Assembly (NCBI GenBank): GCA_021651055.1
Contig: JAJHOH010000001.1
Location: forward strand, 62,001-126,000
Source of the DNA: Candidatus Manganitrophus morganii
GTDB lineage: Bacteria; Nitrospirota; Nitrospiria; SBBL01; Manganitrophaceae
DNA: 64,000 nucleotides
Direction of reading: 5' to 3'
In this document: positions 5,708 through 38,654 of the stretch, piece after piece
How the letters are laid out: every line of letters starts with the position of its first letter
Position numbering within the stretch: position 1 is the stretch's first letter
Translations under genes and position numbers: made by a program
Notes under the pieces: model-generated
Database searches by the model: none
Told to the model about the DNA's origin: nothing
What the model saw: the letters and a program-made list of their open reading frames with translations, nothing else

Positions 5708-5767
5708 GAGTCTCCTCCTGAGACGATCGATCAGGCGCTTTTTTATTTTCAATCTTCAATGGCACGT

Positions 5768-9056: not shown

Positions 9057-9787
9057 CGAACGATCTTCTCCCTCAAGATCAACCAAGCAAATTTCGGCAA
9101 GGCGGTCTGTCGAATCAACCGGCGCGGCTGAGAGGCCAGCCGGTAGAACCACTCCAGATGCATCTTCCTGAACAAGGCGGGCGCCCGTTTGACCCGGCCC
9201 GAAAGAACATCAAACGTTCCGCCGACTCCTTGGCAGACTTTAATGGAAAGTTGCGGAAGGTAGCGCGCCATCCAGAGCTCCTGCTTCGGACTTCCCAGGG
9301 CGACGAAGAGGATTTCCGCCCCGGAGGCATTGATTTGTTGAACCAGTTCCCCCATCTCTTCTTCTTTTAAATAGCCATGCTGCTGTCCGACGATCTGCAG
9401 ACCTGGGTAACGCGTGCGAAGAACTTCTCCCGCCCGTTGGTTGACCTCGGCGCTCCCGCCGAAAAGGAAAATTCGGTACCCCTTCCGGGCCGCCCGCTCA
9501 CAAATCGCCGGCATCAACTCCGAGCCGGGGACCTGACTCATCCGGCCCAATCGAAGAAGACGCGCCGCAAAGACGACGCCGATTCCGTCCGGAATCAGAA
9601 GGCCGGCCCCGCGTAATTGATCCAATAAAAAAGGATCGTTCTGGGCCTTAATCACCTTTTCAGGATTGACCGCGATCACCGCTTCCCCCCGGCTCCCCTC
9701 GATCATCGTTTCCACCCGCGCCACCGCCTGACTCATGTCGACACAGTCGGTCGGAACCCCCAGAATTTCGATCCTTCTCGGTTTCAT
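9053..9787 (-). CDS. WecG/TagA/CpsF-family glycosyltransferase (GT26)
   Basis: Cytoplasmic GT26 enzyme that probably adds the second sugar, typically N-acetyl-D-mannosamine or its uronic acid, to the lipid-linked primer made by the WecA-like protein. 244 residues from the ATG at 9787 (AAAGGAG eight bases upstream, ATGA overlap with the heparinase-like gene). Family motifs: VNPEKVIKAQND (about 40-52), LIPDGIGVV (about 64-72), FLFGG, and the signature VALGSPKQELWM (about 162-173), followed by VGGTFDVLSGRVKRAP. The basic C-terminal tail suggests membrane association, as for TagA. A linked UDP-GlcNAc 2-epimerase (23845) would supply ManNAc donor. Confidence 0.92.
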   Translation of the reverse strand: MKPRRIEILGVPTDCVDMSQAVARVETMIEGSRGEAVIAVNPEKVIKAQNDPFLLDQLRGAGLLIPDGIGVVFAARLLRLGRMSQVPGSELMPAICERAARKGYRIFLFGGSAEVNQRAGEVLRTRYPGLQIVGQQHGYLKEEEMGELVQQINASGAEILFVALGSPKQELWMARYLPQLSIKVCQGVGGTFDVLSGRVKRAPALFRKMHLEWFYRLASQPRRLIRQTALPKFAWLILREKIVR

Positions 9788-11658
9788 GAGATCCACTCCT
9801 TTAACGCTGCCAGGGCTTCTTTCAGGGAGTGGCCGGTCGTGGGGACCGGTCCCAATGCAATACGGGTTAGGAACGAATGCGGGAGGGTCCCCTCGTGCCT
9901 GACGCGGATCGCTGTGATCGGTTCTTTACTGCCGTAGACGGGCGCTCTCCATCCGAGGATCGGATCGGTTTCCCCCCGATGGAGAGAGAGCGCCCCACCC
10001 TCCGCCGAGAGCGAGACGATTTGGGTCGAATCGGAAAGGAGGAAGACATCTCCGGTTCGATTCGGTTCTACACCGAGATGCCAATAAAGATCAAGCGTAT
10101 GTTTTCCCGCGCCGGCAAGAAAATCCCAGATGAGCCAACTCCCCGGCGGTTCAAAAAACACCGCCCGCCAGTGTGTCACCCCGCAGCGCGCGTATCCCGG
10201 ATGCGAAGCCAACAGCCGTATCCCTCCTTCGTCCAACACCTCGCGCTGAACGACCTTGGCATCAAACGGATTGGACCAGATAAAGGGGGCCTCCTGAATG
10301 GCTTGATCTTGCCGATCGACGACGACGGTATTGTGGGCGGCGGTCCCTCGGAAATAGGCCCGCCATTTCAGATCGGCATAGCTGTAGGTCCCCGGATCGA
10401 TCAAGAATTCGTTCTCTCCGATTCGGAGCGTCACCGACAAGGCATCTGCATGACCGTGCCCGCAGAGCGGCGGCATGCCGAGGGAACCATGGTCAAAACG
10501 AAGAACGGCTTGGCCGCTTCGAATCTGAGAATAACCGGCCTCATTAAAAGAGGTCAGCCCTTCCCGAATCCCCTCTTCCGAACCGAAACGGAGGAAGGGT
10601 GAGAGCGCATGACCGTCATCGCTGTCGCCGATCGAGGGAACGCGTCCCTTCGTGTCGGCGGCGGCGCCGAGAAACCGCCGGCCGCGTTGCGTCGCCTCCC
10701 GCAAGGCGGGCGGGATCGGCTGCGCTTGATGGATCAGAAGTGCAACCACCAACTGGTAGAGATCGACCCCAAAACGAAGATAATGAAAGGCCTGCTCCAC
10801 CCCGCCCCCATCCGGAAGAATCTGATGATCGGCCTCTTTCTCCAAAAGGGAGAGACCGAGTCCCCGCCATCGATCCGCCCCTCGCATTTCCGGGAAAAGA
10901 ACGCCGGCATAGATCAGTCCCGCCGCCTCGGACAGGGTATGGTTTCCGACGGAAGAGTGGACCGAAAGCCGCTTCTCGATGAGCGACGCATGTTCCTCGA
11001 TCAACCGAATCAGGGCGAACCAAACCGATTCAGGATCGCGCAATCGGTCGCGAACCAGATCGAGCGCGTGGCAGGCCGCGATGAGGCGAAGGCCGCACTC
11101 CATCGCGGAGATATAATGAATCCCCGTCAAAAACGGATTCGCCTCGATCCAAGAAAGGAATTGCGCTTCAAGAAGGGCGGCCGCCTGCCGGCCGATCTCG
11201 GGAGAAGCCTCTTTCGAAAGAAGTCCTAATCCGACCAACTGCTGGAGCCGGGAAGGCTCCCATGCGATTCGAATATCCCCGTATTGATTTCCGGGCCGGT
11301 ATGAAATCGATCCGAAAAAAAGCCTCGGCCAGATCTTCCCCGTATCGGGGGCCTCATGCCAGACGGCCCCTTCGGGGCGCCACTGCCAGCGCCAGTCTCC
11401 GATCTTGATTTTTCCGGAGAGGAGACGATCGATCTCTTCAGGATCGGTCATTTTGATGGGGAGCGTCGGAAGCTTCGGCGCTGTTCCCCTACAAAATTCG
11501 AAACGGGAAAACTCCCGCTCCGACGAAACGATCCCGCCCCGCCCCATTCGATAACGGGCCGCCATCATCTTCAACGTCCACTGCTCTCCGATCCGATGTG
11601 CGATCTCCGTCGGGCCCATGACGCGAAGCCGTTTTACCATCCACTTGAGATTGGCCAT
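9784..11658 (-). CDS. Heparinase II/III family protein (polysaccharide lyase-like)
   Basis: Predicted polysaccharide lyase or binding protein acting on uronic-acid-containing polymer. 624 residues, no clear signal peptide. An N-terminal (alpha/alpha) toroid part spans about 30-380 (HYISAMECGLRLIAACHAL and HTLSEAAGLIYAG are typical). The C-terminal heparinase II/III beta domain begins near 390 with LCGHGHADALSVTLRIGENEFLIDPG in two parts, and AHNTVVVDRQDQA. The motif HGHADAL with FLIDPGTY is the hallmark of this family. It is a frequent partner of the bi-domain oxidoreductase in EPS clusters, where its target is unproven. It lies five bases after that oxidoreductase gene and overlaps the GT26 gene. 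Confidence 0.9.
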   Translation of the reverse strand: MANLKWMVKRLRVMGPTEIAHRIGEQWTLKMMAARYRMGRGGIVSSEREFSRFEFCRGTAPKLPTLPIKMTDPEEIDRLLSGKIKIGDWRWQWRPEGAVWHEAPDTGKIWPRLFFGSISYRPGNQYGDIRIAWEPSRLQQLVGLGLLSKEASPEIGRQAAALLEAQFLSWIEANPFLTGIHYISAMECGLRLIAACHALDLVRDRLRDPESVWFALIRLIEEHASLIEKRLSVHSSVGNHTLSEAAGLIYAGVLFPEMRGADRWRGLGLSLLEKEADHQILPDGGGVEQAFHYLRFGVDLYQLVVALLIHQAQPIPPALREATQRGRRFLGAAADTKGRVPSIGDSDDGHALSPFLRFGSEEGIREGLTSFNEAGYSQIRSGQAVLRFDHGSLGMPPLCGHGHADALSVTLRIGENEFLIDPGTYSYADLKWRAYFRGTAAHNTVVVDRQDQAIQEAPFIWSNPFDAKVVQREVLDEGGIRLLASHPGYARCGVTHWRAVFFEPPGSWLIWDFLAGAGKHTLDLYWHLGVEPNRTGDVFLLSDSTQIVSLSAEGGALSLHRGETDPILGWRAPVYGSKEPITAIRVRHEGTLPHSFLTRIALGPVPTTGHSLKEALAALKEWIS

Positions 11659-11663
11659 TCCGT

Positions 11664-13817
11664 CTACTCTCCCAACGCGTAAACCGCACCGGTCCGGCCA
11701 CTCTCCACCGCGCGGAGCGTGGCCCTTGTCACGGCCTGGATTTCAGCAAACGACATTGCCGGGGTTCCCCCCTGAATCGCCTCAACAAAGCGCGTCATCT
11801 CCGTCTGGAATCCTTTGTCTTGTTTGCTCGTCTTAAAGCTCTTTCCTTTTCCGCCGGAGAAAGATTCGGTTTTAATAAAATCATTGATGATCACCGCCTT
11901 CCCCTCCCCGAAGGCTTCGAACCGCTCCTTCGCCAAGGCGGTATCGCCGCCGGCCGTGTAGATCACCGTGCCGATGGAGCCGTCGGCGAAAGAAAAGGAG
12001 AGGAGGCTCTGATCCTCCGTGATGCCGGAGGTGTGATGATCGATCCGGCGCGCGTGCACCGACGTCGGAACCGATCCGCAGAGGGCCTGCATGCAATCGA
12101 TGAAGTGACAGGCTTCCCCCAGAATACGTCCGCCCCCGATCTCCGGATCATGCACCCAATGGTCCGGCGGAAGCGCCCCGGCATTCACCCGATAGAGCAT
12201 CACCAGCGGATTTTTTCGATCTTGGAACAGGGCGCGGGCTTGAGCCATGTGGGGAGAGAAACGTCGGTTGAATCCAACCATCAGTTGAATCCCTTCGGTC
12301 GCCTTGGCTTCGTAAACGGCGGTAATTTCCTCCAACTCTTCTTCCGAAAGACAGAGCGGCTTCTCGACAAAGACATGTTTCCCGGCACGAAGCGATTCGA
12401 CCACCATTTGTCCATGGTCGCGATGGCGGGTTCCGATCAAGACGGCATTGATCTCTTCATCCTTCAACACTTCTCGGTAATCGCTCGCGCAATAGACCGC
12501 ACTGCTCTTCTCCGCCAATGCCTTTGCATGGATTCCGCTGGCGGTGCAGATGGCTCTCAAAGAGACTTCCTTGATACCGCTTAATACAGGTAGAAGCCGG
12601 TCTTTGACATGGCTTCCGGCGCCGATAATTCCAAGCTGCACCCGGCCCGATCGGCTCCCCTTGCGGAGGTGCACGACGCGATTCGGTTTCGCCTTCTCTT
12701 GACCCGGATAAGAGAGCATGATCCCCAAGTAAGGGGCGCCCCCTTCCATCATCAACCGATAAGCCTGCTCCGCCTCTTGGATCGGGTACCGATGGGTGAT
12801 CAGCCGCTTCACATCGACCTTCTTCTGCGCGATAAGTGCAAGAAAGGCCTCCATGTTCCGCCCTTCCGTCCATCGGACATAGCCATAAGGATAGTCGTGC
12901 CCTTTCTCCTCATATTCGGGATCATACCGGCCCGGGCCATAGGAGGTGGAGAGCCGCAGCTCCAGCTCTTTCTTGTAATAGGGCTCCCGCGGGATTTCCA
13001 TCCCCACCGCGCCGACCACCACGACCCGTCCCTTCTTTCGCGCAATCTCCCCGGCCATCTCGACCGGGCCGTTTTCCTTCGTGCTCGCCGTGATCAAGAT
13101 GGCGTCCAACCCAGCGCCCTGTGTGAAGCCGGCCGCCGCCTCAATCAACCGGTCGGGGGGCGCTGCGACATCCGCGCCGAGGGCGGTTGCAAGGGCGATT
13201 TTCGCCGGATCAAAATCAGAGGCAAGGACCGCGCAGCCGGCCGCCTTCAGCAGCTGAACGGTCAACTGTCCGAGAAGACCCAGTCCGATGACGGCGACCC
13301 GATCGCCCAGTTGAGGTTCGGCTTGTCTCACCCCCTGCAGGGCGATGGCCCCGAGCGCGACAAAGGCCCCTTCTTCGAAATCGATCCCCTCCGGCATCTT
13401 CACGCAAAGGTTTTTCGGAACGGAGATCATCGCGGCATGCGAGGCATAATTTTGACCGGTGCAGGCGACCCGATCCCCCACCGAAAACCCTTCGACCCGC
13501 TTGCCCACTTCGAGCACGATGCCCGCGGCGCTGTAGCCGAGGGCGGCCGGGGTGTCGAGCCGCTCGAAGACCATTCGCAAGGTATCGACGACCCCTTCTT
13601 TTTGGATCTTATTCAGGACCTTTCGGACCAGATCGGGCCGCTCCATCGCCTTGCCGGCCAAACTTTTCTGCGCCACCTGCACGGTCGAACGTTCCGTCCC
13701 GGCGCTGATTAAAGAAACCTGCGTCGCCACAAGCAATCCGCCCTCCCGCACCGTCGGCGCAGGAACTTCCTCAACCTTCAAAGTGCCGGTCCGATAATTT
13801 TGAATCACCTGTTTCAT
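11664..13817 (-). CDS. Bi-domain oxidoreductase: zinc-type alcohol dehydrogenase + Gfo/Idh/MocA
   Basis: Fusion of two NAD(P)-dependent domains, 717 residues from the ATG at 13817 (GAGGTG upstream). Residues 1-350 are an MDR alcohol dehydrogenase: GYSAAGIVLEVG, GDRVACTGQNYASHA, and the Rossmann motif VAVIGLGLLGQLTVQ. Residues 375-717 are a Gfo/Idh/MocA oxidoreductase: QLGIIGAGSHVKDRLLPVL, HVFVEKPLC with the conserved EKP, GGGRILGEACHFIDCMQAL, and GFNRRFSPH. The combination is a known family of EPS and lipopolysaccharide loci, presumably oxidising a nucleotide-sugar or glycosyl intermediate. The exact substrate is not known. It is placed between GT4 and the heparinase-like gene, a recurring trio. 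Confidence 0.92.
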   Translation of the reverse strand: MKQVIQNYRTGTLKVEEVPAPTVREGGLLVATQVSLISAGTERSTVQVAQKSLAGKAMERPDLVRKVLNKIQKEGVVDTLRMVFERLDTPAALGYSAAGIVLEVGKRVEGFSVGDRVACTGQNYASHAAMISVPKNLCVKMPEGIDFEEGAFVALGAIALQGVRQAEPQLGDRVAVIGLGLLGQLTVQLLKAAGCAVLASDFDPAKIALATALGADVAAPPDRLIEAAAGFTQGAGLDAILITASTKENGPVEMAGEIARKKGRVVVVGAVGMEIPREPYYKKELELRLSTSYGPGRYDPEYEEKGHDYPYGYVRWTEGRNMEAFLALIAQKKVDVKRLITHRYPIQEAEQAYRLMMEGGAPYLGIMLSYPGQEKAKPNRVVHLRKGSRSGRVQLGIIGAGSHVKDRLLPVLSGIKEVSLRAICTASGIHAKALAEKSSAVYCASDYREVLKDEEINAVLIGTRHRDHGQMVVESLRAGKHVFVEKPLCLSEEELEEITAVYEAKATEGIQLMVGFNRRFSPHMAQARALFQDRKNPLVMLYRVNAGALPPDHWVHDPEIGGGRILGEACHFIDCMQALCGSVPTSVHARRIDHHTSGITEDQSLLSFSFADGSIGTVIYTAGGDTALAKERFEAFGEGKAVIINDFIKTESFSGGKGKSFKTSKQDKGFQTEMTRFVEAIQGGTPAMSFAEIQAVTRATLRAVESGRTGAVYALGE

Positions 13818-13848
13818 GCACACCTCGATTACAAATGTGAATACGCCA

Positions 13849-14976
13849 TTAAGTGTTCTCTTTTGCTACTTTTAAAAAAAGCGCGACGATCTTCTCAGCA
13901 TATCGCTCTTCGGTATAGAGGGCTTCATATCGCGCTCGGCTTCGAACTCCCATTCTCTTCAAGCTCTCCGGACTTTCCAACAACAACAAAATTTGCTTGG
14001 CGAGATGCTCCGGATCATTGCATCTCACCTCCAAACCATTCTCTCCCTCAATGACCGTCTCGCGAAGACACCCTCGATCCGTAAAGAGAATCGGCAGGCC
14101 GGCTGCCATTGCCTCAATTACAGCAAGCGGCTGTCCCTCTTGTTGAACTCCGGCAAACACAAATAGGTCCGCCGACCGGAATAATGCCGATTTTGCCTGT
14201 CCCGCGACAGAGCCGGTGAAGAGAACCGCGTCGGCGAAACCCTCTTGGGTGATAAAAGACTGTGCCTGTTCCTTCTCTTGGGGCCGAGACCACTCTCCCG
14301 CGAATACAAACTCGATATCCTGTCTGATTTTCACAAGGATGGCCGCAGCCGCCAGCAATACCAATGTCCCCTTTGCTTGACTTAATGTGCCAAGGTGTAG
14401 AATTCTGTATCGGCGGCGCTTCCCAACGGTCCCGATCGATGCCGCGTCATTGTCGTTCCATCGAATCCCATTCGGAATTACCGAGATTTTCTCGGCAGGA
14501 ACGAGTCCGTCAAAAATGCTTCTAAAAGAGTTCCCCAGAACAATCACATGAGCCACTCCGCTGAAGAGACGTCGAACGTAGAACTTCAACACGCGCCCCC
14601 GAGTTTCGTACCAGGTTCTGAGTCCTCCGCCATGGAGATGAATTACGACCCGACTTCCCACGAGAATAGCCGGCCAGACAAAGAAACTATCCCGAATGAA
14701 CCCGACCGTTTTTTGGGAGATCGGAACATAAACAATCTTGCATCGATCGCGAATGAGGATTTGAATGAAACCAAGCCATTGCTTGATAAATAAGAAGACA
14801 TCATGGAGATCCGGCGCGTTCACATATTCGATGCCACGCCGATCCGCCAGATCCAAATGACGAATTTCAAACGCTTCCTTGACCCTAGAGTCGAGAAGCG
14901 TTTGAATGGCCACTGCAACACCGTGATGAGGGGGAGGCGTTGGACCGATCACCAGGACCAACTCTTTTTTAGCCAT
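13849..14976 (-). CDS. Glycosyltransferase family 4
   Basis: GT-B fold retaining glycosyltransferase that would add a sugar to the growing lipid-linked repeat unit on the cytoplasmic membrane face. 375 residues. N-terminal domain starts LVLVIGPTPPPHHGVAVAIQ with a Gly-rich acceptor loop; VIHLHGGGLR lies near 130. The C-terminal nucleotide-sugar domain has VIPNGI (about 185), ILHLGTLSQAKGT (about 215) and the signature PLAVIEAMAAGLPILFTDRG with E-x7-E spacing (about 290). The start overlaps the preceding GT4 gene by 8 bp. Donor and acceptor cannot be predicted. Confidence 0.9.
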   Translation of the reverse strand: MAKKELVLVIGPTPPPHHGVAVAIQTLLDSRVKEAFEIRHLDLADRRGIEYVNAPDLHDVFLFIKQWLGFIQILIRDRCKIVYVPISQKTVGFIRDSFFVWPAILVGSRVVIHLHGGGLRTWYETRGRVLKFYVRRLFSGVAHVIVLGNSFRSIFDGLVPAEKISVIPNGIRWNDNDAASIGTVGKRRRYRILHLGTLSQAKGTLVLLAAAAILVKIRQDIEFVFAGEWSRPQEKEQAQSFITQEGFADAVLFTGSVAGQAKSALFRSADLFVFAGVQQEGQPLAVIEAMAAGLPILFTDRGCLRETVIEGENGLEVRCNDPEHLAKQILLLLESPESLKRMGVRSRARYEALYTEERYAEKIVALFLKVAKENT

Positions 14977-16165
14977 TTTTCTCTTCTACTCGATTGAGTG
15001 TTCTATCCGAACGTAGATCCATTGCTCCGCTCCTCCCGGAATCGGATACTCTTTCTATAAACCGAATCATTTCCTCTGCAGAGACTTCAATATCAAATTG
15101 TTTAACCCGTTCATAGGCTGTTTTGACCATTACCTTCTTTGCTACAACACTCATCTCCAATGCTTTTAAGATGGCCTCAGCCGATGATTCTATGTCCTTT
15201 GGGTCGAACTTAAATCCCGTGAGGCCCTCCTCAATCAAGTCATGCGTCGCCGCGGCGTGAACGGATGACACGGAGGGAACCCCCGCCGCCATCGCCTCAC
15301 TGAGGACGGCGCCGAAAGAATCGGAGAGGGTGTGAAAAACAAAAAGATCCGCGGCGGCAAAGTACTTACTCAACTCTTCTTTCTGCACATATCCGATAAA
15401 ATGAACGTTCGCCCACCCTTTTTCTTGCACAATCTTTTCATACAAAGGGCGTTCGGGTCCTTCCCCTATAATGAGCAATTCAACGTCGGGTCTCCGCTTC
15501 ACGATCTGTTCATAAATCTTAAAAAGTTCCAAATATCCCTTCCGGCGGATCAGTTGCCCAATCGACAGAAGAATCGGTCCTGAATATTCGCCGCGGAGGC
15601 GCTTACACTCCTCGGATTGCCTAAACGCTTCCGTCTGCCTTTGAAAATAAGAGACTTCAATCGGCATGACTGCGGTCAAGAGACGATCTTCACGCGCCCC
15701 ATAATGGAGAAATGCGTCTCGTGCCACACGCGATGAGGCAATGACGCCGTCCGAATAACGGATCAGGCATTGCCGGATTGCTCTTCGGATGACCGAGGTC
15801 GTTGCGCAATCAGTCATTGTCAACTCTCCCCATCCGATGAATCTCTTCCGGAAGAGACGGCAGTAGATCCATGCTGAAATATTCGCGATCCCAAAACCTC
15901 CACTCACAACGACATCAGGATCCAATTTGCGCAAGGCCTTGATCACACCATAATTGAGATGTACCGAGATTAAGAACCCGGGCGGCCGAATGTGGATCCC
16001 CGGTAAGACCTGCATTTTGAAAGAATGCGGCGCCAACCTCCACCGACGATTCTCCTCATGCCGTGCCATTAACAAAACGGTAAAATCCTTCACGCGGTGC
16101 TGCAAAGCTTCAAAGAGAGGGATACGGTACGGGGTCAGAATATTCGTTAATACCACCAGTTTCAT
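14969..16165 (-). CDS. Glycosyltransferase family 4
   Basis: Second GT-B retaining glycosyltransferase of the operon, 398 residues. N-terminal motif LTNILTPYRIPLFEAL (about 6-21) is typical for this group. The C-terminal domain has ILLSIGQLIRRKGYLELFKIYE (read in parts, about 200-222), LLIIGEGPERPLYE, VHFIGYVQKEELSKYFAAAD and FGAVLSEAMAAGVPSV with the family E-x7-E pair. It is less similar to the neighbouring GT4 than tandem duplication would give, so the two likely make different linkages. It overlaps the next gene by 8 bp. Substrate unknown. Confidence 0.9.
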   Translation of the reverse strand: MKLVVLTNILTPYRIPLFEALQHRVKDFTVLLMARHEENRRWRLAPHSFKMQVLPGIHIRPPGFLISVHLNYGVIKALRKLDPDVVVSGGFGIANISAWIYCRLFRKRFIGWGELTMTDCATTSVIRRAIRQCLIRYSDGVIASSRVARDAFLHYGAREDRLLTAVMPIEVSYFQRQTEAFRQSEECKRLRGEYSGPILLSIGQLIRRKGYLELFKIYEQIVKRRPDVELLIIGEGPERPLYEKIVQEKGWANVHFIGYVQKEELSKYFAAADLFVFHTLSDSFGAVLSEAMAAGVPSVSSVHAAATHDLIEEGLTGFKFDPKDIESSAEAILKALEMSVVAKKVMVKTAYERVKQFDIEVSAEEMIRFIERVSDSGRSGAMDLRSDRTLNRVEEKNG

Positions 16166-16204: not shown

Positions 16205-17056
16205 TCAACTCTGCCTTTGTATCCTCATCGCCATTTTTAAGAATCTCCGATAGATCGGAATCATGTCATAGAGCCGGACCCAAAAGGGCAAATTCAGCAG
16301 TCTTCGTGCCCGCACCTTAACGGCTGTAAGCGTGTCCCGGTATTCCTGCGTACTCTTCTTCTTAAAAAAGGAGGTTGGATTCGTATACCATATGACCGTT
16401 CGACCCGGCAGCAAGACGACGCTTCCGAACCGTGCTGCCCGCAGAACGAAATCATAATCGACACACATACTCAACTTCTCGTCATATCGTCCGGCTGATT
16501 CCCAAATCGATTTCGGAAACACCAGCGTGGAGTGAACGAATGGGTTTCCCCGATACAACCTCGATGCGGGAACCCATACCGGTGATGGGTTCTCCACTTC
16601 TCCAGTCGAGAAAACACTCTCTGGAACAGACTGATGAAATTTAGATGTTTTGGCATATGCCGTAGCCACCACCGCCACGTCAGGATGCGCCTTAAAAAAA
16701 GCGACGGCATAACTCAACCGGTGAGGAAGACTTAAATCATCCGCATCATTGATGGCAATATACCTCCCCCTTGCCAAAGAGATCCCCTCATTCAACGCAC
16801 TTGGAAACCCGATCCGGTCGCGGCGAAGGTAACGAAGGCGCGGATCATTGATTTTTCCGCAGATCTGCTCCGTCGCATCGCTGGAGCCATCATCCACTAC
16901 AATCACTTCAAAACTCGGATGATTCTGGGCAAGTGCAGCCGTGAGGGAGGCGGCAATAAAAGAGGCCGCATTATAAGCCGCCATCACGATGGATATCTCC
17001 GGATCGCCCTTCTGAATCGGCCCTGTCATTCGATCTATCATCTCTCGATCTCGCAA
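16205..17056 (-). CDS. Glycosyltransferase family 2
   Basis: Inverting GT-A glycosyltransferase, about 283 residues. Typical N-terminal fold: ISIVMAAYNAASFI (about 22-35), VIVVDDGSSDATEQ (about 52-65), and the metal-binding region ARGRYIAINDADDLSLPHRL containing NDADD in place of DxD. A conserved SMCVDYDFVLRAARFG lies near 205. No C-terminal membrane helices, so it is probably peripheral. The start is uncertain: TTG at 17056 follows GGGGAG by five bases, while ATG at 17041 has only GAGAG. It is co-directional with the flippase gene 43 bp upstream. Confidence 0.88.
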   Translation of the reverse strand: MRDREMIDRMTGPIQKGDPEISIVMAAYNAASFIAASLTAALAQNHPSFEVIVVDDGSSDATEQICGKINDPRLRYLRRDRIGFPSALNEGISLARGRYIAINDADDLSLPHRLSYAVAFFKAHPDVAVVATAYAKTSKFHQSVPESVFSTGEVENPSPVWVPASRLYRGNPFVHSTLVFPKSIWESAGRYDEKLSMCVDYDFVLRAARFGSVVLLPGRTVIWYTNPTSFFKKKSTQEYRDTLTAVKVRARRLLNLPFWVRLYDMIPIYRRFLKMAMRIQRQS

Positions 17057-17099: not shown

Positions 17100-18467
17100 T
17101 TAATCGGCAATGGAAGGTCTCTGTTTTAACCCATCGACCATCAATTCAGGGTCGTTTTCACGATCGCTTGCGGCGCGCCGCAACATCACCACCGAGAGGG
17201 CAAAAACCAGAAACTCGCCTAAGAACCGGCTCCAGGAAGCGCCGATCAAGCCCCATTCCTTCGTCATGAGATATCCTATCGGTATCAAAAGAAGGAAGGT
17301 CACCGATTTGGTAAAAAAGCCATATTCCGGCTTCCCTAAGGCGACCACGCCAAAACTGTGATATGCCCAAAGCAGCTGGCAGATCATGGCGCCGGATAAA
17401 ATCCAGGCAACGGGTAAAGACGCCGCGTAGGCCTGCTCCTTTCCCGGAACAACCCACGGAATGAGGAAGGGAAGAAAGAACAGAATCACCAACAGAAGCC
17501 CCGCGCCGACAAGGGTTTGTATCCAACTCACCCGCCAGACCTCTCGAACAAAATATGCCGGCGAATTCTTGGCGGCACTTCTTGCAAGTTTTGTCTGCCA
17601 TAAATTGGCGGCCCCAACCAGAAGAACTTGGATCGGCAATATAAATTGACGTCCCAATTCTAATACGGCAACACCCGCCGTGCCGATCAGGCCCAGTGTC
17701 AGGAAGGTGCTCATCTGCGTGTAGGCATACCCAGCCAGATTCGTTCCCAACCCCCATCGGCCGATTTTCCACACTTCGTTCAGACCCGCTATTTCAGACG
17801 GGACTGAGGGACGAAGCCAATATCCCCAGCCGCTCTGGCAAGCCCAAAGAAAATTCACCAAGCCCAACACCAGAAAGATGTTTGCGAGTGTGAAGAATCC
17901 ATATTTCTGTAAGAGAAAAAGGCTACCGATTGTTCCACCAATTGAGACCAATCCTCCGACAAAATCCTGAGAAATCCGTTGATGAATGAAATTGATCCTT
18001 CTTTGCAACTCAACCGCTAAACCACCGAATATAAAAATGACGAATTCGACCGCCGGCCATCCGTTGAGGCGGCCAACAAAGATGGAGATCAAGGCGGATA
18101 TAAAAAAAATGATCTCAAAACTAAAGACAATTGCGGCCAGAAGGGGATCTTTTTGATCATTTACAACCCGCCGACTGCTGATCACAAGCATGGGTGAAAT
18201 TGCCAGCGCGGAAAGGATCATCAGGAAGAAATATCGAGTGGCCACACCCACAGCGAACATCCCGAAATCATGGACCGCAAGAGAGCGAACGAGGTACATT
18301 GTGACCAAAAAGCTTGCCGCTGACCAGAGACCCTGCGCGAGGACCGCAAGCCGCCATTGAAAGCTTCTCCCAATCAGACGATGAAGCCAGTCCTTGGCAA
18401 TGAGATATTTCTGAAGCACCAAATCATCCACCTTTCTTACGACTGGAGAGGAGCAGCCCGCAACCAT
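17100..18467 (-). CDS. Wzx-like oligosaccharide flippase (MATE/MOP superfamily)
   Basis: Integral membrane protein predicted to flip the undecaprenyl-linked repeat unit to the periplasm. Up to 455 residues with about 12-14 hydrophobic helices and the family-typical opening AQGLWSAASFLVTMYLVRSLAVHDFG (in parts), a charged loop SSRRVVNDQKD and C-terminal WSRFLGEFLVFALSVVMLRR. The ATG at 18467 overlaps the upstream gene by 31 bp and has no ribosome site; a GTG at 18419 or TTG at 18422 after AAGGTGG is more likely, giving about 439 residues. Together with the O-antigen-ligase-like gene (19648) and the Wzz-type gene at the window edge it completes a Wzx/Wzy-type assembly set. Confidence 0.88.
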   Translation of the reverse strand: MVAGCSSPVVRKVDDLVLQKYLIAKDWLHRLIGRSFQWRLAVLAQGLWSAASFLVTMYLVRSLAVHDFGMFAVGVATRYFFLMILSALAISPMLVISSRRVVNDQKDPLLAAIVFSFEIIFFISALISIFVGRLNGWPAVEFVIFIFGGLAVELQRRINFIHQRISQDFVGGLVSIGGTIGSLFLLQKYGFFTLANIFLVLGLVNFLWACQSGWGYWLRPSVPSEIAGLNEVWKIGRWGLGTNLAGYAYTQMSTFLTLGLIGTAGVAVLELGRQFILPIQVLLVGAANLWQTKLARSAAKNSPAYFVREVWRVSWIQTLVGAGLLLVILFFLPFLIPWVVPGKEQAYAASLPVAWILSGAMICQLLWAYHSFGVVALGKPEYGFFTKSVTFLLLIPIGYLMTKEWGLIGASWSRFLGEFLVFALSVVMLRRAASDRENDPELMVDGLKQRPSIAD

Positions 18468-19588
18468 CGAGGTTTTGCGGGCGCCTTAAAAACGGTTTTC
18501 TGAAATAGATCGATCTGCTCCTCGCTCAGCATGTTGTAAAGATAGAGTCCGACGCCATTTCCCCGGCTAATCGACCGGGCTTCCGATAAAATTTCGGCGG
18601 CTCTGCGCGCTTCTCTAGGAATGACTTTTTTTCCAGAACCATCTCGGTCGTAATTTCCACATAACATGACCAACGCTTCGGGTCTCTTCATCTTCGATTG
18701 CAAGTTCCGGATTTTTTCAAAGTCCGGGCTGGCCTGGTAATCCATGCTGTAAACGACATCGACCAACCCTTCATCAGCCCATTTCATACTATCCTGCCCT
18801 TGTAATTTTGTGTCCGAGCTCCCTGGAACTGCATCCACACTCATCACGAGATTTTTTCTTGTTTTCCGCGCCCCGACCGAAATACGCGAAATAATATCTC
18901 GAACGGCGGCCTCTTGCCATGCGGCGAGGGCGCTTAGATCGACACCGGGAAGGTTTTTGAGACTCCAATCCTTTACAAGATTTCTCCCGGTGTGTCTCTT
19001 ATAATCTTCGATACAGGAGTTCGTTTTACACATTCCTCCTGAACGAACATAATCAAGATTGATTCCTTGAACGGGATATCTCGTTGCGACTTCGACAATC
19101 AAGGATGAAATGAATTCGCGAAAACGCTCACTATGAATATTAAATGCCTGTCGAGAGGTTCCCTCTTTAAAACGCTGTTCAAAAAATTCGAGTTGCGGTA
19201 AAAAGTCTCTTTGCCGGAGAGAAATCGTGAACCACGGATGAATCTCAATTTCATACTTCTCTGCCAGCTTAATGAGATTCTCCAGCGGATCAAAGCCGGG
19301 AACACGAACTTTGCGGGTATCCCAAGGTGCGAGATCTGATGGCCAGATCGTTCCCCTTCCATGCCAGACACATGGAACGAAAACATTAAACCCTGCTTTC
19401 TTGATCCGGGTTAGCAATTTCTCTGCTGAATCTTTTGTAATCCAAGCGAGTCCTTCATCAAAGATCGCACGACTTTCAAAGAGAGACACACCGCTCGACA
19501 ACGCAAGCCACGGCTTCAAAAGAGAACCCGCGGCAAAGGCGGCCGTCAATTTAATAAATTTCCGACGTGAAAAGGGCCGGCCGGTCAA
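18437..19588 (-). CDS. GHL10-type glycoside hydrolase-like protein, Tat-exported
   Basis: Secreted glycoside-hydrolase-like TIM barrel (family 10-like, GHL10). 383 residues from a TTG at 19588 with GAGGGAG five bases upstream. The N-terminus carries a twin-arginine signal, SRRKFIKLTAAFAAGSLL (about 7-24), so it is likely exported folded. Barrel motifs: AGFNVFVPCVWHGRGT, EIHPWFTI, GINLDYVRSGG, VVYSMDYQ. It is closely related to the C-terminal domain of the protein at 21849, which has AGFNIYVPCVWHGRGT, EVHPWFTV, GLNLDYIRAMG and VIFGMDYR at equivalent places. Hydrolysis of the exopolysaccharide, or remodelling of it, is inferred from location; activity of this family is poorly known. Confidence 0.8.
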   Translation of the reverse strand: MTGRPFSRRKFIKLTAAFAAGSLLKPWLALSSGVSLFESRAIFDEGLAWITKDSAEKLLTRIKKAGFNVFVPCVWHGRGTIWPSDLAPWDTRKVRVPGFDPLENLIKLAEKYEIEIHPWFTISLRQRDFLPQLEFFEQRFKEGTSRQAFNIHSERFREFISSLIVEVATRYPVQGINLDYVRSGGMCKTNSCIEDYKRHTGRNLVKDWSLKNLPGVDLSALAAWQEAAVRDIISRISVGARKTRKNLVMSVDAVPGSSDTKLQGQDSMKWADEGLVDVVYSMDYQASPDFEKIRNLQSKMKRPEALVMLCGNYDRDGSGKKVIPREARRAAEILSEARSISRGNGVGLYLYNMLSEEQIDLFQKTVFKAPAKPRWLRAAPLQS

Positions 19589-19647
19589 TTTAACTCCCTC
19601 TCATCCTCGCGTCTGAAAATCAGATTCATTAGATGAGGTGAACCACG

Positions 19648-20928
19648 CTATATCGTTTTTAGGAGCTCGTATTTCCTTTTCTTAGAAACGGCCTTTGACG
19701 TCTTCGTGTTTTCCGTTTCTGCAGCGAGCGTTTCTTGAGCACTTTCGTGAAACCGGTCCAGACTCAGTACAAAGGTTGCAAGATACCAGTAAAATACCGC
19801 ATGAAAAACGGCCGCGCTCAATATAACGCTCTCCCCAAAATTTGAGATCGTCAAAAAACCGGCGCAATACATTTCCGCTCCATATTTCCTTCCCGTATCA
19901 TATTTGATCAATCGCCATAAGACGGACATCACAATCGAAAGATATAAGCTCGCTCCCAAAAAACCGGAATCTAACAACGCCTGGACATAACCACTATGCA
20001 GCGTAAAGGTTTCGTTGTTTAGCAGCGTTGGGGAATTTGGACGAGGAGACTGAGGAATTTTCCCCTCTTTAAAGGCATCCGAACCGAGTGTAAACCCATA
20101 TCCCAGAAGGGGACGATCCCAAAATTTCTCAAAGGCAAGACCCCATATTACGGTGCGTCCGGACATACGTTCAAGGGAGTCAATCCTAAGAATGCGCGAC
20201 CGCGCTTTTGAAGAGATGTTGATATCCGCCACCGTCGTGACAATAAGGGAAAAAGAGATGATCATGACAGCCGCAAGGCCCCATTCCAATTTACGTCTTA
20301 AATAAAATATTGCGGTGATCAATAAACTTGCCGCTCCAGCAGCCCAGAAAGTCCGAGATCCCGTCAAATAGAGACACGGAAGGGACGAGAGGATTCCCGC
20401 GGCACGCAGCAAAACCTTTCGTTCGCTAAAAATGCACAGTCCTAATAAAAGACCGGAAGTGGCCGCCATTTTAGCAGGTTTGCCGAAGAGTCCCTTGAAC
20501 CGACGGCCTTCTAAAGTTTCCTCATATGCGAAACCAGGCGAATATGCCAATAAAACCAGACTGACAAGACAAACAATGATAAATGCCGTCATCGTTACAT
20601 TCATCACGGTTTCATTTTTGGCCGCATCATTTGGGGATGCCTCCAAGTGAGCGATAAAAAACAACAACACGGCAGCCAACGAAATCACCTGGAAACCGAC
20701 GTAAATGGGTTGACTTGAAAAAGGGATCGTCAACGAAAGAGCAATGAGGTATCCGAAAATTAAAATATATTTTTTGTAGATTTCCAAACGGCTGTGGGTT
20801 AGGAACCAATACGCCCCAACAATCAACGCAAGCCCTTCAGAAAGGCCGCGAAGAACATAGGTGTCTCCGATGGGTGCTGCATCCTTAAGCAGGAGAGCCA
20901 GAATGAGCAGGCCCAGTATATAAGCCAT
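19648..20928 (-). CDS. O-antigen ligase / Wzy-type polymerase family membrane protein
   Basis: Polytopic membrane protein of the O-antigen ligase superfamily (Wzy_C), about 426 residues. It probably polymerises repeat units in the periplasm. About 10-11 helices; the large periplasmic loop carries SGRTVIWGLAFEKFWDRPLLGYGFTLG (in parts, near 255-280) and the conserved His in FTLHSGYVQALLDSGFLG (near 315), which are the family signatures. A charged C-terminal tail ends KKRKYELLKTI. ATG at 20928 is preferred over an in-frame TTG nine bases upstream. It lies between the methyltransferase gene and the Tat GHL10 gene, on the same strand. Confidence 0.85.
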   Translation of the reverse strand: MAYILGLLILALLLKDAAPIGDTYVLRGLSEGLALIVGAYWFLTHSRLEIYKKYILIFGYLIALSLTIPFSSQPIYVGFQVISLAAVLLFFIAHLEASPNDAAKNETVMNVTMTAFIIVCLVSLVLLAYSPGFAYEETLEGRRFKGLFGKPAKMAATSGLLLGLCIFSERKVLLRAAGILSSLPCLYLTGSRTFWAAGAASLLITAIFYLRRKLEWGLAAVMIISFSLIVTTVADINISSKARSRILRIDSLERMSGRTVIWGLAFEKFWDRPLLGYGFTLGSDAFKEGKIPQSPRPNSPTLLNNETFTLHSGYVQALLDSGFLGASLYLSIVMSVLWRLIKYDTGRKYGAEMYCAGFLTISNFGESVILSAAVFHAVFYWYLATFVLSLDRFHESAQETLAAETENTKTSKAVSKKRKYELLKTI

Positions 20929-20982
20929 CCTTTGCAATCTCCAAGTCTGACGCCATATCGTTACACTGAATTCCGGTACTCT

Positions 20983-21816
20983 CTAGCGTTGTTCGACCGG
21001 GTCCGCTTTCTCGGGTTTCTGCAGCACGAAGGCCGCGGCCGTCGGCTTGAGTTTCTGAAATGGATTGACGCAATGATAACGGTCATTCCATGCGAACAGA
21101 CGGGACAATATGTCGTCCGCGTAAACGGCGGCCGCCGAGTTGTATATCGGACCTCGGAATATAAAACGCAGGCGAGAAATGAGCGGAAAAACGCACCTCG
21201 TTTCCTTCACAATGGTAAATCCGGCTGAGCGCACGATCGCGCGGAAAATCGGTAGCGGAAGACCTCGCTCTCGTTTGGTGAGACCCGCCCGTTCTCGTCT
21301 CCAGTCTCCCATTGAAACGATGGGTTCACGAATGAGGGCGATTCCGGACGGTCGCAAACACCGAAAGAGCTCGCGGACCACTGTGCTCACATTGGGAACA
21401 TGGTGTAGACACCCGAAACAGGTGGCCAGATCGAACGACTCATCGCGGAATGGCATAATGCCGCTCGATCGGGGTTTGACATATTCAACGGGCACACCCG
21501 CAATCGCCTTAACAGGGAATGCCTGGGACGGTTCGAGAATCGTAATTTTCTCCACGCGAGAGAGAAGCGGGCGCAATTCCTCACCGGTGGCTCCCCCAAG
21601 GCTTAAAACGGAGGGAAACCGACGAAGCGGCAAGTATCGAAAGCTATGGGCATGGTTCAGGGCATGGGCCCCATAGTAATTTTGGGGCCGGTCCTTCGCG
21701 CCTAGGTTCGCGTAAGCTTCTTCTTCATCCTTAAACCATTGCTCGATTTCTTCAGGGGAGAAATCATCACCGTAGAGTTTTTTCCCTTGTAAATACTCAT
21801 CCAGTGTGTGGTGCAT
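20983..21816 (-). CDS. Class I SAM-dependent methyltransferase
   Basis: Predicted methyltransferase, 277 residues from ATG at 21816 (GGAGG eight bases upstream; the longer frame starts with a TTG). The Rossmann SAM-binding part has VLSLGGATGEELRPLL (motif I), ITILEPSQ (motif II) and FDLATCFGCLHHVPNVSTVVRELFRCLRPSG (in parts), typical of Methyltransf_11. The C-terminal stretch includes a hydrophobic FPLISRLRFIFRGPIYN. Its place in the EPS operon suggests methylation of a sugar or lipid-linked intermediate, but the substrate cannot be told. Confidence 0.85.
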   Translation of the reverse strand: MHHTLDEYLQGKKLYGDDFSPEEIEQWFKDEEEAYANLGAKDRPQNYYGAHALNHAHSFRYLPLRRFPSVLSLGGATGEELRPLLSRVEKITILEPSQAFPVKAIAGVPVEYVKPRSSGIMPFRDESFDLATCFGCLHHVPNVSTVVRELFRCLRPSGIALIREPIVSMGDWRRERAGLTKRERGLPLPIFRAIVRSAGFTIVKETRCVFPLISRLRFIFRGPIYNSAAAVYADDILSRLFAWNDRYHCVNPFQKLKPTAAAFVLQKPEKADPVEQR

Positions 21817-21848
21817 CCTCAATACCTCCAAGCAGAACCGCTCATTAT

Positions 21849-23705
21849 TTAATTCGCCGCTTTCCAGACCGGAAAAGCATTCTCCAAGAAAGGTCCCGTT
21901 CTTAAGGCATTCACTTGTTCATCAGTAAGCTTGCTATAGATGTAGAGCCCCATTCCGGTTCCAGGCCACCTGCGTTGAGCAAACGCCGCATATTTTGCGA
22001 CCAGATCACCTGTCCTCGGAACTGCCTCCGATTGGTCATCCACTTTGTCATAATTACCAAACAACACAATCATCTTTTCCGGTTGCTTTAACGCACTTCG
22101 TACGGCATCCACATTCTCGAAATCAATCCGTTGGCGGTAATCCATACCAAAAATGACGTCAATCCAGCCGTAATTGGCCCACGCCAATTCATCTCTTCCT
22201 TCAAGCGCTCTCAACTCGCCGCCCGGGGCTTTTGGCTGACCATCTATGCTGATAATCAGTTTGGGCTTTAGAATTCTTGCCTGCTTTGAAAGATTTTTGA
22301 CGATATCGGTAACTGCAAGATCCTGCCACTTTTGAAGGCGCCACCTGGCGGATTCATCAACAGAACTCTGAGTTAAATCTTCCAGTAAAGGAAACCCAGT
22401 CACCCGATAATAATTGTTTTGGCAGTCGACGGACGTACAAACACCCATGGCTCGAATATAATCTAAATTCAGGCCATCGATGTCATAACGACGAACCACA
22501 TCGAGGATTAATTCACGGATAAACTTCCGAAACTCAATATTATGAATATCAAAAGCGCCCTCCGGAACACCTTCATCAAAAAACTGAGCGTATTCGGCGC
22601 TCTCTCTTTTTACAACAGTAAACCAAGGGTGCACTTCAATGCCCATACTATGGGCTTTCTGAATCAAGTAGGCCAAAGGATCATATCCGAGCGGTATCAT
22701 TGATGCGACCTTCGGATCCGTCGAGGCAATACGAGACGGATAGTAAGTGCCCCTTCCGTGCCAGACACACGGGACGTAAATATTAAATCCGGCTGCTTTC
22801 ACCCGGGACAAGATCTTATCGGCGGCCTCCTTCGAGAAAGCCCAACTCATAGACTCATCGAAGATGGCCCTATTCTCAATTAGCCGCCCCTGACGATCTC
22901 TTCGCTGTACTAACGGTACGGCGAGCCCCTCATTGAGCCATTCCCACTTCCTGTCGTAAGCCGCCGCCAAATCGTTTTCCTGTGTTTGGTAAAACTGAAA
23001 AACTTCCTGAGAAGAAAAAGGACGATCAAAGATGATCAGACTTCCCAAAAGGGACTCGGCCCCACGCCCTTTTTGGCTGGTCGTCCCTTTATCGGTACCG
23101 AGATAGAGCGGTCCGCCGTTCACATAATCGCCGGAAAAAGTTTTTTGGTTCTCCGCGATCTTCTCGCCGTTGACATAAAGCTTACAATAGCCAGGGTCGC
23201 CACTTTCCCAAACGGCAGTGATCATGACCCATGCTTCTAGATCAAAACCATAGGGGGCAGAACAATGAATGGATTCTTGGTTGCTCAGTATAAAGTAGAG
23301 ACGTTTTGAACCAAGCGGCTCCCACCATCCGTGTGAAACAGCCATATAACTTTTCTGGCTGTCGGCCCATGGAAGGGTCAAAAATGTATGCGATTTTTCA
23401 CTCTCCTGTTCCCAAAGCGGCTTCATCCAAAACGAGAGGGTTCCCGCCTTCGCATTCAATGCTTGGGACGGTCTGATCTCGGCAAACGTTTCTGCGGTCA
23501 ACTGTAAAGATCTTCCCCGTTCCTGGTCTGAAACGATTACCGCGCCATAAAGCTCGACGCTTCCTGATATTGCCTCATAATCCTCATACAGAATGATTCT
23601 CTCTTCGTCGGGGAAAAGTGAAAACGACTCTTCCGGAAAAATTAAAATAAACACGAACATGAAAAAACATACGAAGAACATACAAAAATATTTCGAGCAC
23701 TTCAT
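21849..23705 (-). CDS. Secreted LamG-GHL10 two-domain glycosidase-like protein
   Basis: 618 residues: strong hydrophobic N-terminal signal (FFVCFFMFVFILIF), a concanavalin/LamG-type domain at about 35-240 (TLSFWMKPLW, YLGTDKGTTSQKG, LYVNGEKIAEN) and a GHL10 barrel at about 275-610. The barrel matches the protein at 18437 almost motif for motif (RAIFDE, VPCVWHGRGT, HPWFTV, NLDYIRAMG, FGMDYR). The LamG part suggests polysaccharide binding. A short unresolved 139-bp spacer separates it from the epimerase gene. It could trim, attach or remodel the secreted polymer; no catalytic assignment is safe. Confidence 0.8.
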   Translation of the reverse strand: MKCSKYFCMFFVCFFMFVFILIFPEESFSLFPDEERIILYEDYEAISGSVELYGAVIVSDQERGRSLQLTAETFAEIRPSQALNAKAGTLSFWMKPLWEQESEKSHTFLTLPWADSQKSYMAVSHGWWEPLGSKRLYFILSNQESIHCSAPYGFDLEAWVMITAVWESGDPGYCKLYVNGEKIAENQKTFSGDYVNGGPLYLGTDKGTTSQKGRGAESLLGSLIIFDRPFSSQEVFQFYQTQENDLAAAYDRKWEWLNEGLAVPLVQRRDRQGRLIENRAIFDESMSWAFSKEAADKILSRVKAAGFNIYVPCVWHGRGTYYPSRIASTDPKVASMIPLGYDPLAYLIQKAHSMGIEVHPWFTVVKRESAEYAQFFDEGVPEGAFDIHNIEFRKFIRELILDVVRRYDIDGLNLDYIRAMGVCTSVDCQNNYYRVTGFPLLEDLTQSSVDESARWRLQKWQDLAVTDIVKNLSKQARILKPKLIISIDGQPKAPGGELRALEGRDELAWANYGWIDVIFGMDYRQRIDFENVDAVRSALKQPEKMIVLFGNYDKVDDQSEAVPRTGDLVAKYAAFAQRRWPGTGMGLYIYSKLTDEQVNALRTGPFLENAFPVWKAAN

Positions 23706-23844: not shown

Positions 23845-25050
23845 TTACCCAAACGTTTTGTGAGGTTTACCGTTATTCTGCCCCTTTTCAGTCATACGTA
23901 ATCCCACCATTTTCCCTTTTTCAATTTCTGATAAAACCGCAGTAATTCTTTCCGCCGCCCGCCCATCCCACTTCTCCGGGGTTCGGACCGGGTCTCCATT
24001 TTCCTCCATCGCCGATTCGAATCCCATCAGGATCGATTCGCGACGGGTTCCCACCAAGCGGTTGGTCCCCTGGAAAATCGTAATCGGCCGTTCCGTGTTC
24101 TCTCGAAGAGTCAAACAGGGAACACCGAGGATGGTCGCCTCCTCTTGGATTCCGCCGCTGTCTGTCAACATAAGCTTTGCATGGGCATGGAGTTGAAGGA
24201 AGTCAAGATAGCCGAACGGGGGAACCAGCACGATTCGGTCTCCGTCTTTAATAGATGTTCCAACATAGGATTGGAGACCGAAAGACTCGATTTGGGCAGC
24301 GGTGCGAGGGTGACAAGGAAAAATAATCGGAAGAACATCTGAAAGGGTTCTCACAGCCTGAAGGATTTCGTGAAGAGTATCGAAGCAATCGACATTGGAA
24401 GGGCGATGGAGGGTGAGTACGCCATATGGTTTTACTTGCTGCTCCTCTTTCAAACCGAGCGTCTCCAAAACCAGAGACCGGGACGCGCGCTCACGATGCT
24501 TAAGAAGAGTATCGATCATGACATTACCAACAAAAAAAATCTGATGCTCCGGAATGCCTTCCCCCTTGAGATTGGCATTGGCTCCAAGATCGGTTGTAAA
24601 AAGAAGATCGGCGACGGCATCGGTGACCTTGCGGTTGATCTCTTCCGGCATCGTCATGTCACCACTTCGAAGCCCCGCCTCAACATGGGCGATGGGGATG
24701 TTCAATTTCTTTGCAGCAAGAGTGCAAGCCATGGTGGAGTTGATATCTCCTACCACCAGGACCATGTCGGGACGCTCTTCTTGTAAAACCTTCTCAAAAG
24801 CGATCATAATCTTGCCGGTTTGCTCTGCGTGGCTCCCCGACCCGATTTCCAGGTTGAGATCCGGACGAGGAAGTCCAAGATCTTCAAAAAAGGATTGCGA
24901 CATTGCTTGATCGTAATGTTGGCCCGTATGGACTAAAAGTGACTCAAACTTTGGATTAACTTTCTGTTCGTTATGTCGCTCGATCGCTTCTAAGATTGGA
25001 GCAATTTTCATGAAATTCGGTCGGGCACCGACCACATGAATAATCTTCAT
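23845..25050 (-). CDS. wecB: UDP-N-acetylglucosamine 2-epimerase (non-hydrolysing)
   Basis: Cytoplasmic enzyme converting UDP-GlcNAc to UDP-ManNAc. 401 residues with family motifs in order: VVGARPNFMKIAPIL (5-19), LLVHTGQHYDQAMS (38-51), MVLVVGDINSTMACTLAA (about 95-112), IAHVEAGLRSGDMTMPEEINR (in parts, 118-138), FVGNVMIDTL, VLTLHRPSNVD, LLTDSGGIQEEATILGVPCLTLRENTERP (in parts). All catalytic acidic and His residues of the family seem present. AAAAGGAG precedes ATG. No obvious promoter lies in the 90-bp gap upstream, so it may be read through from the VPLPA-type gene. It likely feeds the GT26 enzyme at 9053. Confidence 0.95.
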   Translation of the reverse strand: MKIIHVVGARPNFMKIAPILEAIERHNEQKVNPKFESLLVHTGQHYDQAMSQSFFEDLGLPRPDLNLEIGSGSHAEQTGKIMIAFEKVLQEERPDMVLVVGDINSTMACTLAAKKLNIPIAHVEAGLRSGDMTMPEEINRKVTDAVADLLFTTDLGANANLKGEGIPEHQIFFVGNVMIDTLLKHRERASRSLVLETLGLKEEQQVKPYGVLTLHRPSNVDCFDTLHEILQAVRTLSDVLPIIFPCHPRTAAQIESFGLQSYVGTSIKDGDRIVLVPPFGYLDFLQLHAHAKLMLTDSGGIQEEATILGVPCLTLRENTERPITIFQGTNRLVGTRRESILMGFESAMEENGDPVRTPEKWDGRAAERITAVLSEIEKGKMVGLRMTEKGQNNGKPHKTFG

Positions 25051-25140: not shown

Positions 25141-25818
25141 TTATGTGAACAAATTCATTCGGGAAATTGCGATCAACCCAATCAAGCTCGAACCAAAGAG
25201 GAGAAAAGAGGCGGGAATTGGAGCCGGGGTCATTCCGCCTGCCCAAACAGACCCGCCCTCCTGCCCAAAGATCCGTGAGGCGAAGACAAAGGTAGGACCT
25301 GTCCCGTCCGACAGAGATGTACCCACAAAGTCAGAGATGGAAAGATCCACTCCGTTGATGGCCAGATCAAAAGACAACGTCTCCCCGCTATCGAGCGAAG
25401 ATCCTCGTCTAAAGTCGAACACGCCATCATAGAACCCTCCTCCGGAAGCCAGAAGGTTCCCTCTTCTTTGATTCTCGTTTCGAGCAAGCCTTGTCCTAAA
25501 TTCGCTTACATTTAAGTCAGCGCCATCTAAGGTGACATTGCTGAACCGTAGATCTCTGGGATCACTCCCGTATGGATCTCCGTTAAAGTTGAAATACAGC
25601 GAGTCGAGATTACCCGAAGAGATATTGGTTACATCGACTCGAACCACATCTCCAACATCGGTCAAGGTGACCACTGCCTGGGGGGCGACATCGGGGATAA
25701 GGATGGGGTTGAAGATTTGATCGAGGGCAAACGTCAATTCAGCTGCAGCTGCAGTTGTAACAGCCGGTCCTACTCCTGTTACCAACAACAGTGCGAAAGA
25801 GATAATCAGCTTTCTCAT
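25141..25818 (-). CDS. Secreted protein with VPLPA/PEP-CTERM-like sorting signal
   Basis: Likely substrate of the exosortase at 7395. 225 residues: signal peptide with AAAA near residue 25, a mainly beta-strand, Asn/Asp-rich body with VVTLTDVGDVVRVDVTNIS (about 48-66), then the tripartite tail: motif APIPAS (about 203-208), hydrophobic helix FLLFGSSLIGLIAI, and the final basic residue R followed by MNLFT. This resembles VPLPA-CTERM signals (VPLPAS-F-LFGSGLLGL-R), with API replacing VPL. Start ATG has AGGAGGG upstream. Function beyond being a surface or EPS-associated protein is unknown. The promoter region carries a CRP-type site. Confidence 0.82.
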   Translation of the reverse strand: MRKLIISFALLLVTGVGPAVTTAAAAELTFALDQIFNPILIPDVAPQAVVTLTDVGDVVRVDVTNISSGNLDSLYFNFNGDPYGSDPRDLRFSNVTLDGADLNVSEFRTRLARNENQRRGNLLASGGGFYDGVFDFRRGSSLDSGETLSFDLAINGVDLSISDFVGTSLSDGTGPTFVFASRIFGQEGGSVWAGGMTPAPIPASFLLFGSSLIGLIAISRMNLFT

Positions 25819-38597: not shown

Positions 38598-38654
38598 AGT
38601 GACAATAAAATCGGGTTTCCCTTCACTTTCTGAATTGGCAGGAGAAACGGCTCA

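Follow-up and report, generated by a model that had tools for sequence, protein, structure and literature searches.

Two related GHL10 proteins, encoded on either side of a Wzy-type polymerase gene in Candidatus Manganitrophus, are best read as periplasmic glycanases that process the polymer of their own gene cluster, trimming its chains and controlling their length, with clean-up as a side effect; we give this reading a probability of roughly 0.55. Pure clean-up ranks second and peptidoglycan remodelling third. Both proteins belong to a defined subfamily of predicted, polymerase-linked glycosidases for which candidate catalytic residues can be named. The window, as we call the whole stretch of DNA analysed, is 64,000 nucleotides long.

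Every gene from about position 1514 to 25818 of the window lies on the minus strand. In the direction of transcription, the cluster begins with a VPLPA protein as candidate exosortase substrate (25141–25818), followed by the UDP-GlcNAc 2-epimerase WecB (23845–25050; TIGR00236, 328.3 bits, cut-off 210.15), a LamG-GHL10 protein with a hydrophobic N-terminal leader (21849–23705), a SAM-dependent methyltransferase (20983–21831; PF08241, 54.1 bits, cut-off 21.2), a Wzy_C polymerase/ligase-like membrane protein (19648–20937; PF04932, 71.3 bits, cut-off 31.7) and a bare GHL10 barrel with a putative twin-arginine (Tat) signal (18437–19588). Downstream are a membrane protein at the flippase (Wzx) position (17100–18467), a GT2 glycosyltransferase (16205–17056; PF00535, 109.8 bits), two GT4 glycosyltransferases (13849–14976 and 14969–16165; PF00534, 107.5 and 111.5 bits), a fused alcohol dehydrogenase-Gfo/Idh oxidoreductase (11664–13823; PF01408, 76.0 bits; PF00107, 56.8 bits) and a heparinase II/III-like protein (9784–11658; PF07940, 150.5 bits). 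The cluster ends with the VPLPA-CTERM exosortase XrtD carrying an EpsI domain (7395–9152; TIGR04152, 562.2 bits, cut-off 400), a WecA-like priming transferase (5768–7405; PF00953, 135.8 bits), the TPR protein PrsT (3317–5752; TIGR02917, 356.4 bits, cut-off 312.2) and a Poly_export/SLBB export protein (2746–3315; PF02563, 79.4 bits). The intergenic gaps from WecB to the flippase position, taken from the coordinates, are 139, 17, 45, 59 and −31 bases, and judged from these gaps the genes look like one transcript. The putative flippase was assigned from its position and hydrophobic sequence, a Pfam search having returned no family over cut-off for it. The Wzy_C protein showed seven hydrophobic segments in a simple hydropathy scan and scored 34.5 bits against TIGR03097, far under the cut-off of 188.1. 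XrtD and PrsT, both features of the VPLPA-CTERM/XrtD system, scored over their cut-offs, and the best explanation of the locus is a cluster of this type that makes a Wzy-dependent exopolysaccharide. The pairing of a heparinase II/III-like gene with the fused alcohol dehydrogenase-Gfo/Idh gene recurs in many GHL10 loci (L042, L047, L064, L067, L069 and L070) and forms a second conserved module of GHL10-bearing clusters.

The sequence-only reading had described two GHL10 paralogues flanking the polymerase and the methyltransferase, one a bare barrel with the Tat signal SRRKFIKL, the other with a Sec-type signal and an N-terminal LamG domain, and near-identical in their core motifs; Pfam scores, coordinates and the structural model bear this description out. 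Tat-GHL10 has 383 residues from a TTG start and scored 71.2 bits against PF02638 (cut-off 27.9). LamG-GHL10 has 618 residues and scored 71.0 bits against the same profile and 47.3 bits against Laminin_G_3 (PF13385, cut-off 27.6). BLASTP aligned the two with 149 of 396 positions identical (38%, E 1e-89); VPCVWHGRGT is the same in both, NLDYVR in one copy corresponds to NLDYIR in the other, and MDY occurs in both. Across the whole genome these are the only two GHL10 genes over cut-off; elsewhere there is one weak match.

Against the Tat signal profile PF10518 (cut-off 22.7), Tat-GHL10 scored only 16.2 bits; the Tat call is therefore drawn from the motif and its conservation across the clade. Supporting the call, an N-terminal RR motif of the SRR/TRR-x-F kind is present in all seven rows of the Tat clade (window, L006, L020, L036, L037, L038 and L040; the motifs of the window and L006 were assigned by reading), and a TatC gene was found in the genome. 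The pattern [STN]RRx[FIL] occurred within the first 60 residues of 8 of the 54 ORFs examined and was lacking in the other 46. The eight are L020, L036, L037, L038 and L040, together with L042, which the tree does not include, L061, which it places elsewhere, and L045, whose motif may simply be a basic Sec n-region. For LamG-GHL10, helix 4–22 of the model coincides with a hydrophobic leader. We infer that the bare copy uses the Tat route and the LamG copy a Sec-type route. C187 and C192 vary together: of the 53 aligned subfamily rows, 45 have Cys at both positions and 8 have Ser/Ala, never a mixture, as a periplasmic disulphide would lead one to expect. Tat substrates travel folded, a point that bears on when the putative disulphide would form in the Tat copy.

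To place the pair in context, the best 80 of 481 GHL10 loci were kept from a scan; by score, 49 of them (L036–L084) belong to the same subfamily as the window proteins and 31 are distant GHL10 loci. Forty-seven genomes were counted, L037 and L063 being left out as they come from the same genomes as L036 and L045. A Wzy_C gene lay within 3 kb of a subfamily GHL10 gene in at least 20 of the 47 genomes (0.32 expected), and an exosortase gene within 35 kb in 20 of the 47 (1.43 expected). The expectations spread the matches evenly over each genome, and distances were taken on one contig, where contig breaks can only lower the observed counts. An exosortase was present in 39 of 47 genomes versus 1 of 14 control genomes and, among the matches listed, Wzy_C in 46 of 47 versus 9 of 14. 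Across phyla the constant element is one GHL10 gene adjoining a Wzy-type polymerase gene near an exosortase gene, usually one per cluster. Among the matches listed, members from Planctomycetota, Armatimonadota, Lentisphaerota and similar groups had neither Wzy_C nor exosortase neighbours, indicating further uses for the LamG type; the many LamG members without a polymerase nearby in Planctomycetota and Armatimonadota count against polymer processing. In the literature searched on exosortase clusters, we found no polymerase-linked GHL10 subfamily with GH156-like features, nor in the literature searched a two-lineage GHL10 pair with different export routes; a term search of Haft 2006 (PMC1569441) returned no 'DUF187', 'PF02638' or 'hydrolase'. 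A literature search for Manganitrophus polymers, whose results another term dominated, returned nothing. The individual parts are of known kinds.

The pair itself is a narrower feature than the linkage. Two GHL10 genes inside one cluster were found in the window, in the congeneric genome G183 (L017/L018), in Candidatus Manganitrophus sp. GAC4 (L039), to which the window GHL10 barrel is 67% identical, and in a gammaproteobacterial MAG (L078/G238). Counted by genome, a pair on one contig and in one neighbourhood occurred in 2 of the 47 genomes reached via loci (G200 and G238), plus the window genome and G183; seven more (G198, G205, G206, G207, G217, G223 and G235) carry a second copy of at least 200 bits on another contig. 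The neighbourhood search proposed by the sequence-only reading recovered the pair in all three Manganitrophus genomes seen, and rarely beyond them. General pairing across phyla was rejected, the subfamily being present in 9 of 198 genomes of the phylum and in two copies in 2 of those 9. In all four pair clusters a polymerase or polymerase-like protein is flanked, and the other content varies. In G183, the GHL10 genes enclose a flippase, a GT4 and a 448-residue polytopic protein with 11 hydrophobic segments and no Pfam match; in GAC4, frameshifts break several cluster genes; in L078, Wzy_C and a flippase lie between, and next comes a pectate-lyase-like protein whose leader bears an RR motif (L078:11228-12394). 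The latter cluster brings three exported depolymerase-like genes together. Recent tandem duplication was rejected as the origin of the window pair, as the copies fall in separate clades with support of 100/100 (Tat, 7 rows) and 100/97 (LamG, 4 rows). The L078 copies sit elsewhere on the tree with long branches, which makes an independent origin of that pair probable. In each of two Nitrospira MAGs (L036 with L037, and L045 with L063), two separate contigs bear a GHL10 gene in the midst of glycosyltransferase genes, possibly reflecting two polysaccharide clusters per genome.

AlphaFold2 models of the Tat and LamG proteins reached mean pLDDT values of 91.9 and 91.4. The best solved matches of the Tat-GHL10 model were Cwp19 (5oq2; Z 30.2, rmsd 2.9 over 305 residues of a (beta/alpha)8 barrel), the PgaB C-terminal domain (Z 26.5) and GH156 (Z 22.0). 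Foldseek ranked Cwp19 first for both copies, with GH156 and PgaB also among the best matches of the LamG copy. Kinship of the LamG domain to clostridial neurotoxin binding domains, which appeared in the structure search, was rejected and read as a common jelly-roll fold only.

The match to Cwp19 bears on peptidoglycan remodelling, in which the GHL10 proteins would instead breach the wall to let the export machinery through. DigH belongs to GHL10. It is described as cutting denuded glycans (PMC12288456), and Cwp19, the closest solved relative, as a lytic transglycosylase that cuts peptidoglycan (PMC6016235). Both count for peptidoglycan remodelling, and the activity of Cwp19 counts against polymer processing. 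Cwp19 of Clostridioides difficile has the PF02638 family and barrel in common with the window proteins, and the passages cited place its gene in a surface-polysaccharide locus and propose Asp196, the second Asp of a beta4 DD pair, as catalytic (PMC5765458). However, it is only 17–20% identical to the window barrels and carries cell-wall-binding repeats in place of a LamG domain or Tat leader. The window proteins also differ in an acidic D44-E45 at the beta1 end, and on beta4 they have D179-Y180 for D195-D196. Asp196 (Cwp19 chain numbering inferred) aligns with Tyr180, which is kept in 52 of 53 subfamily rows and is Phe in one, and this element of a Cwp19-type active site is absent. This substitution counts against peptidoglycan remodelling and also against polymer processing. 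The subfamily is linked to surface-polysaccharide polymerases and, to our knowledge, LamG is not a usual wall-binding module; we regard wall remodelling as improbable.

We collected GH156 relatives, confirmed their alignment to the crystal chain and ran a profile-profile comparison (hhalign), which related the subfamily to GH156 with a probability of 97.1% (E 7.1e-11). In the GH156 enzyme EnvSia156, Asp14 acts as base and His134 as acid, and Arg129, Arg202 and Asn346 bind the carboxylate; the authors of that work saw no active-centre residues conserved between GH156 and Cwp19 (PMC6811678, in the passages cited). In the profile alignment, R182 fell on the carboxylate-binding Arg202 and P118-W119 on Pro124-Trp125, giving the subfamily and EnvSia156 a PW motif and an LD[WY].R motif in common. 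R182 is thus a site residue that links the subfamily to GH156 and that Cwp19 is not reported to have. The hhalign alignment stopped short of beta1, and the end points of the structural match suggest that E45 or D44 corresponds to Asp14. For His134, after beta3, the window loop differs in length and no clear residue aligned. Membership of GH156 was rejected: Asn346 has no conserved counterpart (Asn352 in some rows, and Ser, Gly, Lys, Thr or others elsewhere), and the C-terminal beta-sandwich is absent from the Tat copy, whose model stops after the barrel. Tentatively, and with low confidence, the subfamily might represent a glycosidase family, intermediate between GHL10 and GH156 and so far unrecognised, in which R182 and R125 would recognise an acidic sugar and a carboxylate on beta1 (E45 or D44) would serve as base. 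Manganitrophus would then have brought two old lineages together in its cluster, with the LamG enzyme holding the chain, the Tat enzyme free, and each cutting at its own stage while the polymer is made and exported. A search near WecB for a sugar-dehydrogenase gene, a pointer to an acidic sugar, gave matches over cut-off only far outside the cluster.

W75, D100, N177, D179, G264, W270, M282, Y284, Y349 and Q358 are among the positions invariant in the 53 aligned rows; D44 is kept in 51, E45 in 50, H117 in 51 and R182 in 52. The two window copies match at each of the 24 positions of active-site type that were checked; structure prediction and the comparison of acidic residues, both suggested beforehand, place candidate catalytic residues in each. 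In the Tat copy of G183 (L006), the changes Y180F, R182T and D252N argue against a uniform role and against polymer processing; in this one of three Manganitrophus genomes, the activity of that copy may have been lost or changed. Lacking R182 and D252, it also gives some ground for supposing that one GHL10 copy has no catalytic role and serves in binding or as a scaffold, but for the window, where both copies keep all the checked positions, we consider this quite improbable.

Polymer processing, our preferred reading, draws on the polymerase and exosortase linkage, the fold match to PgaB, the agreement at 24 of 24 positions and the presence of TatC. Once exported, both proteins would work in the periplasm as glycosidases of the cluster's exopolysaccharide. 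The lectin-like domain of LamG-GHL10 would hold the chain while the barrel cuts it, and the bare Tat-exported copy, close to the polymerase, would attack chains that are free or still emerging. The result would be shorter chains (length control) and the removal of polymer stalled in the periplasm. Alginate lyase has been proposed to clear mislocalised polymer from the periplasm. If the barrels served such quality control only, leaving exported length unaffected, the anatomy would be the same, and the cluster also encodes a heparinase II/III-like protein; we nevertheless find this unlikely, the retention of two lineages together in three Manganitrophus genomes weakly suggesting more than one task.

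Precedents for polymer processing exist in other systems. According to the passages cited, PgaB cuts the polymer of its own operon, and PslG and PelA are periplasmic hydrolases of theirs (PMC10485009); Pantoea stewartii WceF is a Tat-exported glycanase of a Wzy-dependent cluster whose mutant makes longer stewartan (PMC7949094); and PrmQ, an exported GH16 protein, is predicted to cut promonan (PMC11340318). Both window proteins show two features of such hydrolases, a position in a synthesis operon and a predicted export signal. The PgaB C-terminal domain (GH153) resembles them in predicted fold and periplasmic location and in its place in the operon of its own polymer, but belongs to a PNAG system and is joined to a deacetylase domain, and among the aligned rows PgaB gave no match at the sequence level. 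WceF resembles the window Tat copy in the Tat route, predicted for the latter, and in its Wzy-dependent exopolysaccharide cluster, but has a tailspike-like fold and belongs to an unrelated protein family. PslG (GH39), PelA and PrmQ are exported hydrolases of their own polysaccharide operons, as proposed here, but come from other hydrolase families, and none is described in the cited passages as a pair of related barrels.

The sequence-only reading had suggested trimming or transfer to a carrier, not simple degradation. Its polymer-handling part agrees with the polymerase and exosortase linkage and with these analogues, but transfer found no support, and simple clearance of stray polymer would also fit. 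Neither of the two outcomes that it had named as refuting it was obtained, the pair being conserved in the three Manganitrophus genomes seen and candidate catalytic residues being present in both copies. XrtD and a candidate substrate inside the cluster would suit a transglycosidase reading, in which the completed polymer is handed over by one barrel, or by both, to a carrier, either a lipid or a protein such as a VPLPA-CTERM protein. No feature here separates transfer from hydrolysis, however, and the sorting tail of the candidate is degenerate in this genome, making this reading very improbable. The window protein ends in PIPAS...ISRMNLFT (TIGR03370, 10.8 bits, cut-off 25.35), whereas its G183 orthologue has an intact VPLPAS...ARRK tail (30.1 bits). 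The GAC4 orthologue has a degenerate tail in common with the window protein, and the substrate may no longer be sorted in that sublineage.

Many environmental bacteria carry exosortase-linked exopolysaccharide clusters, whose polymer-shaping enzymes are mostly unnamed; the subfamily offers candidate enzymes for dispersing such matrices. In this manganese oxidiser, with its GHL10 pair on different predicted export routes, the polymer may, speculatively, hold or template mineral. Apart from the main cluster, the plus strand at 37338–40193 carries a gene for an HGSNAT_cat-type acyltransferase and, after it, a second flippase-like gene (Polysacc_synt_3).
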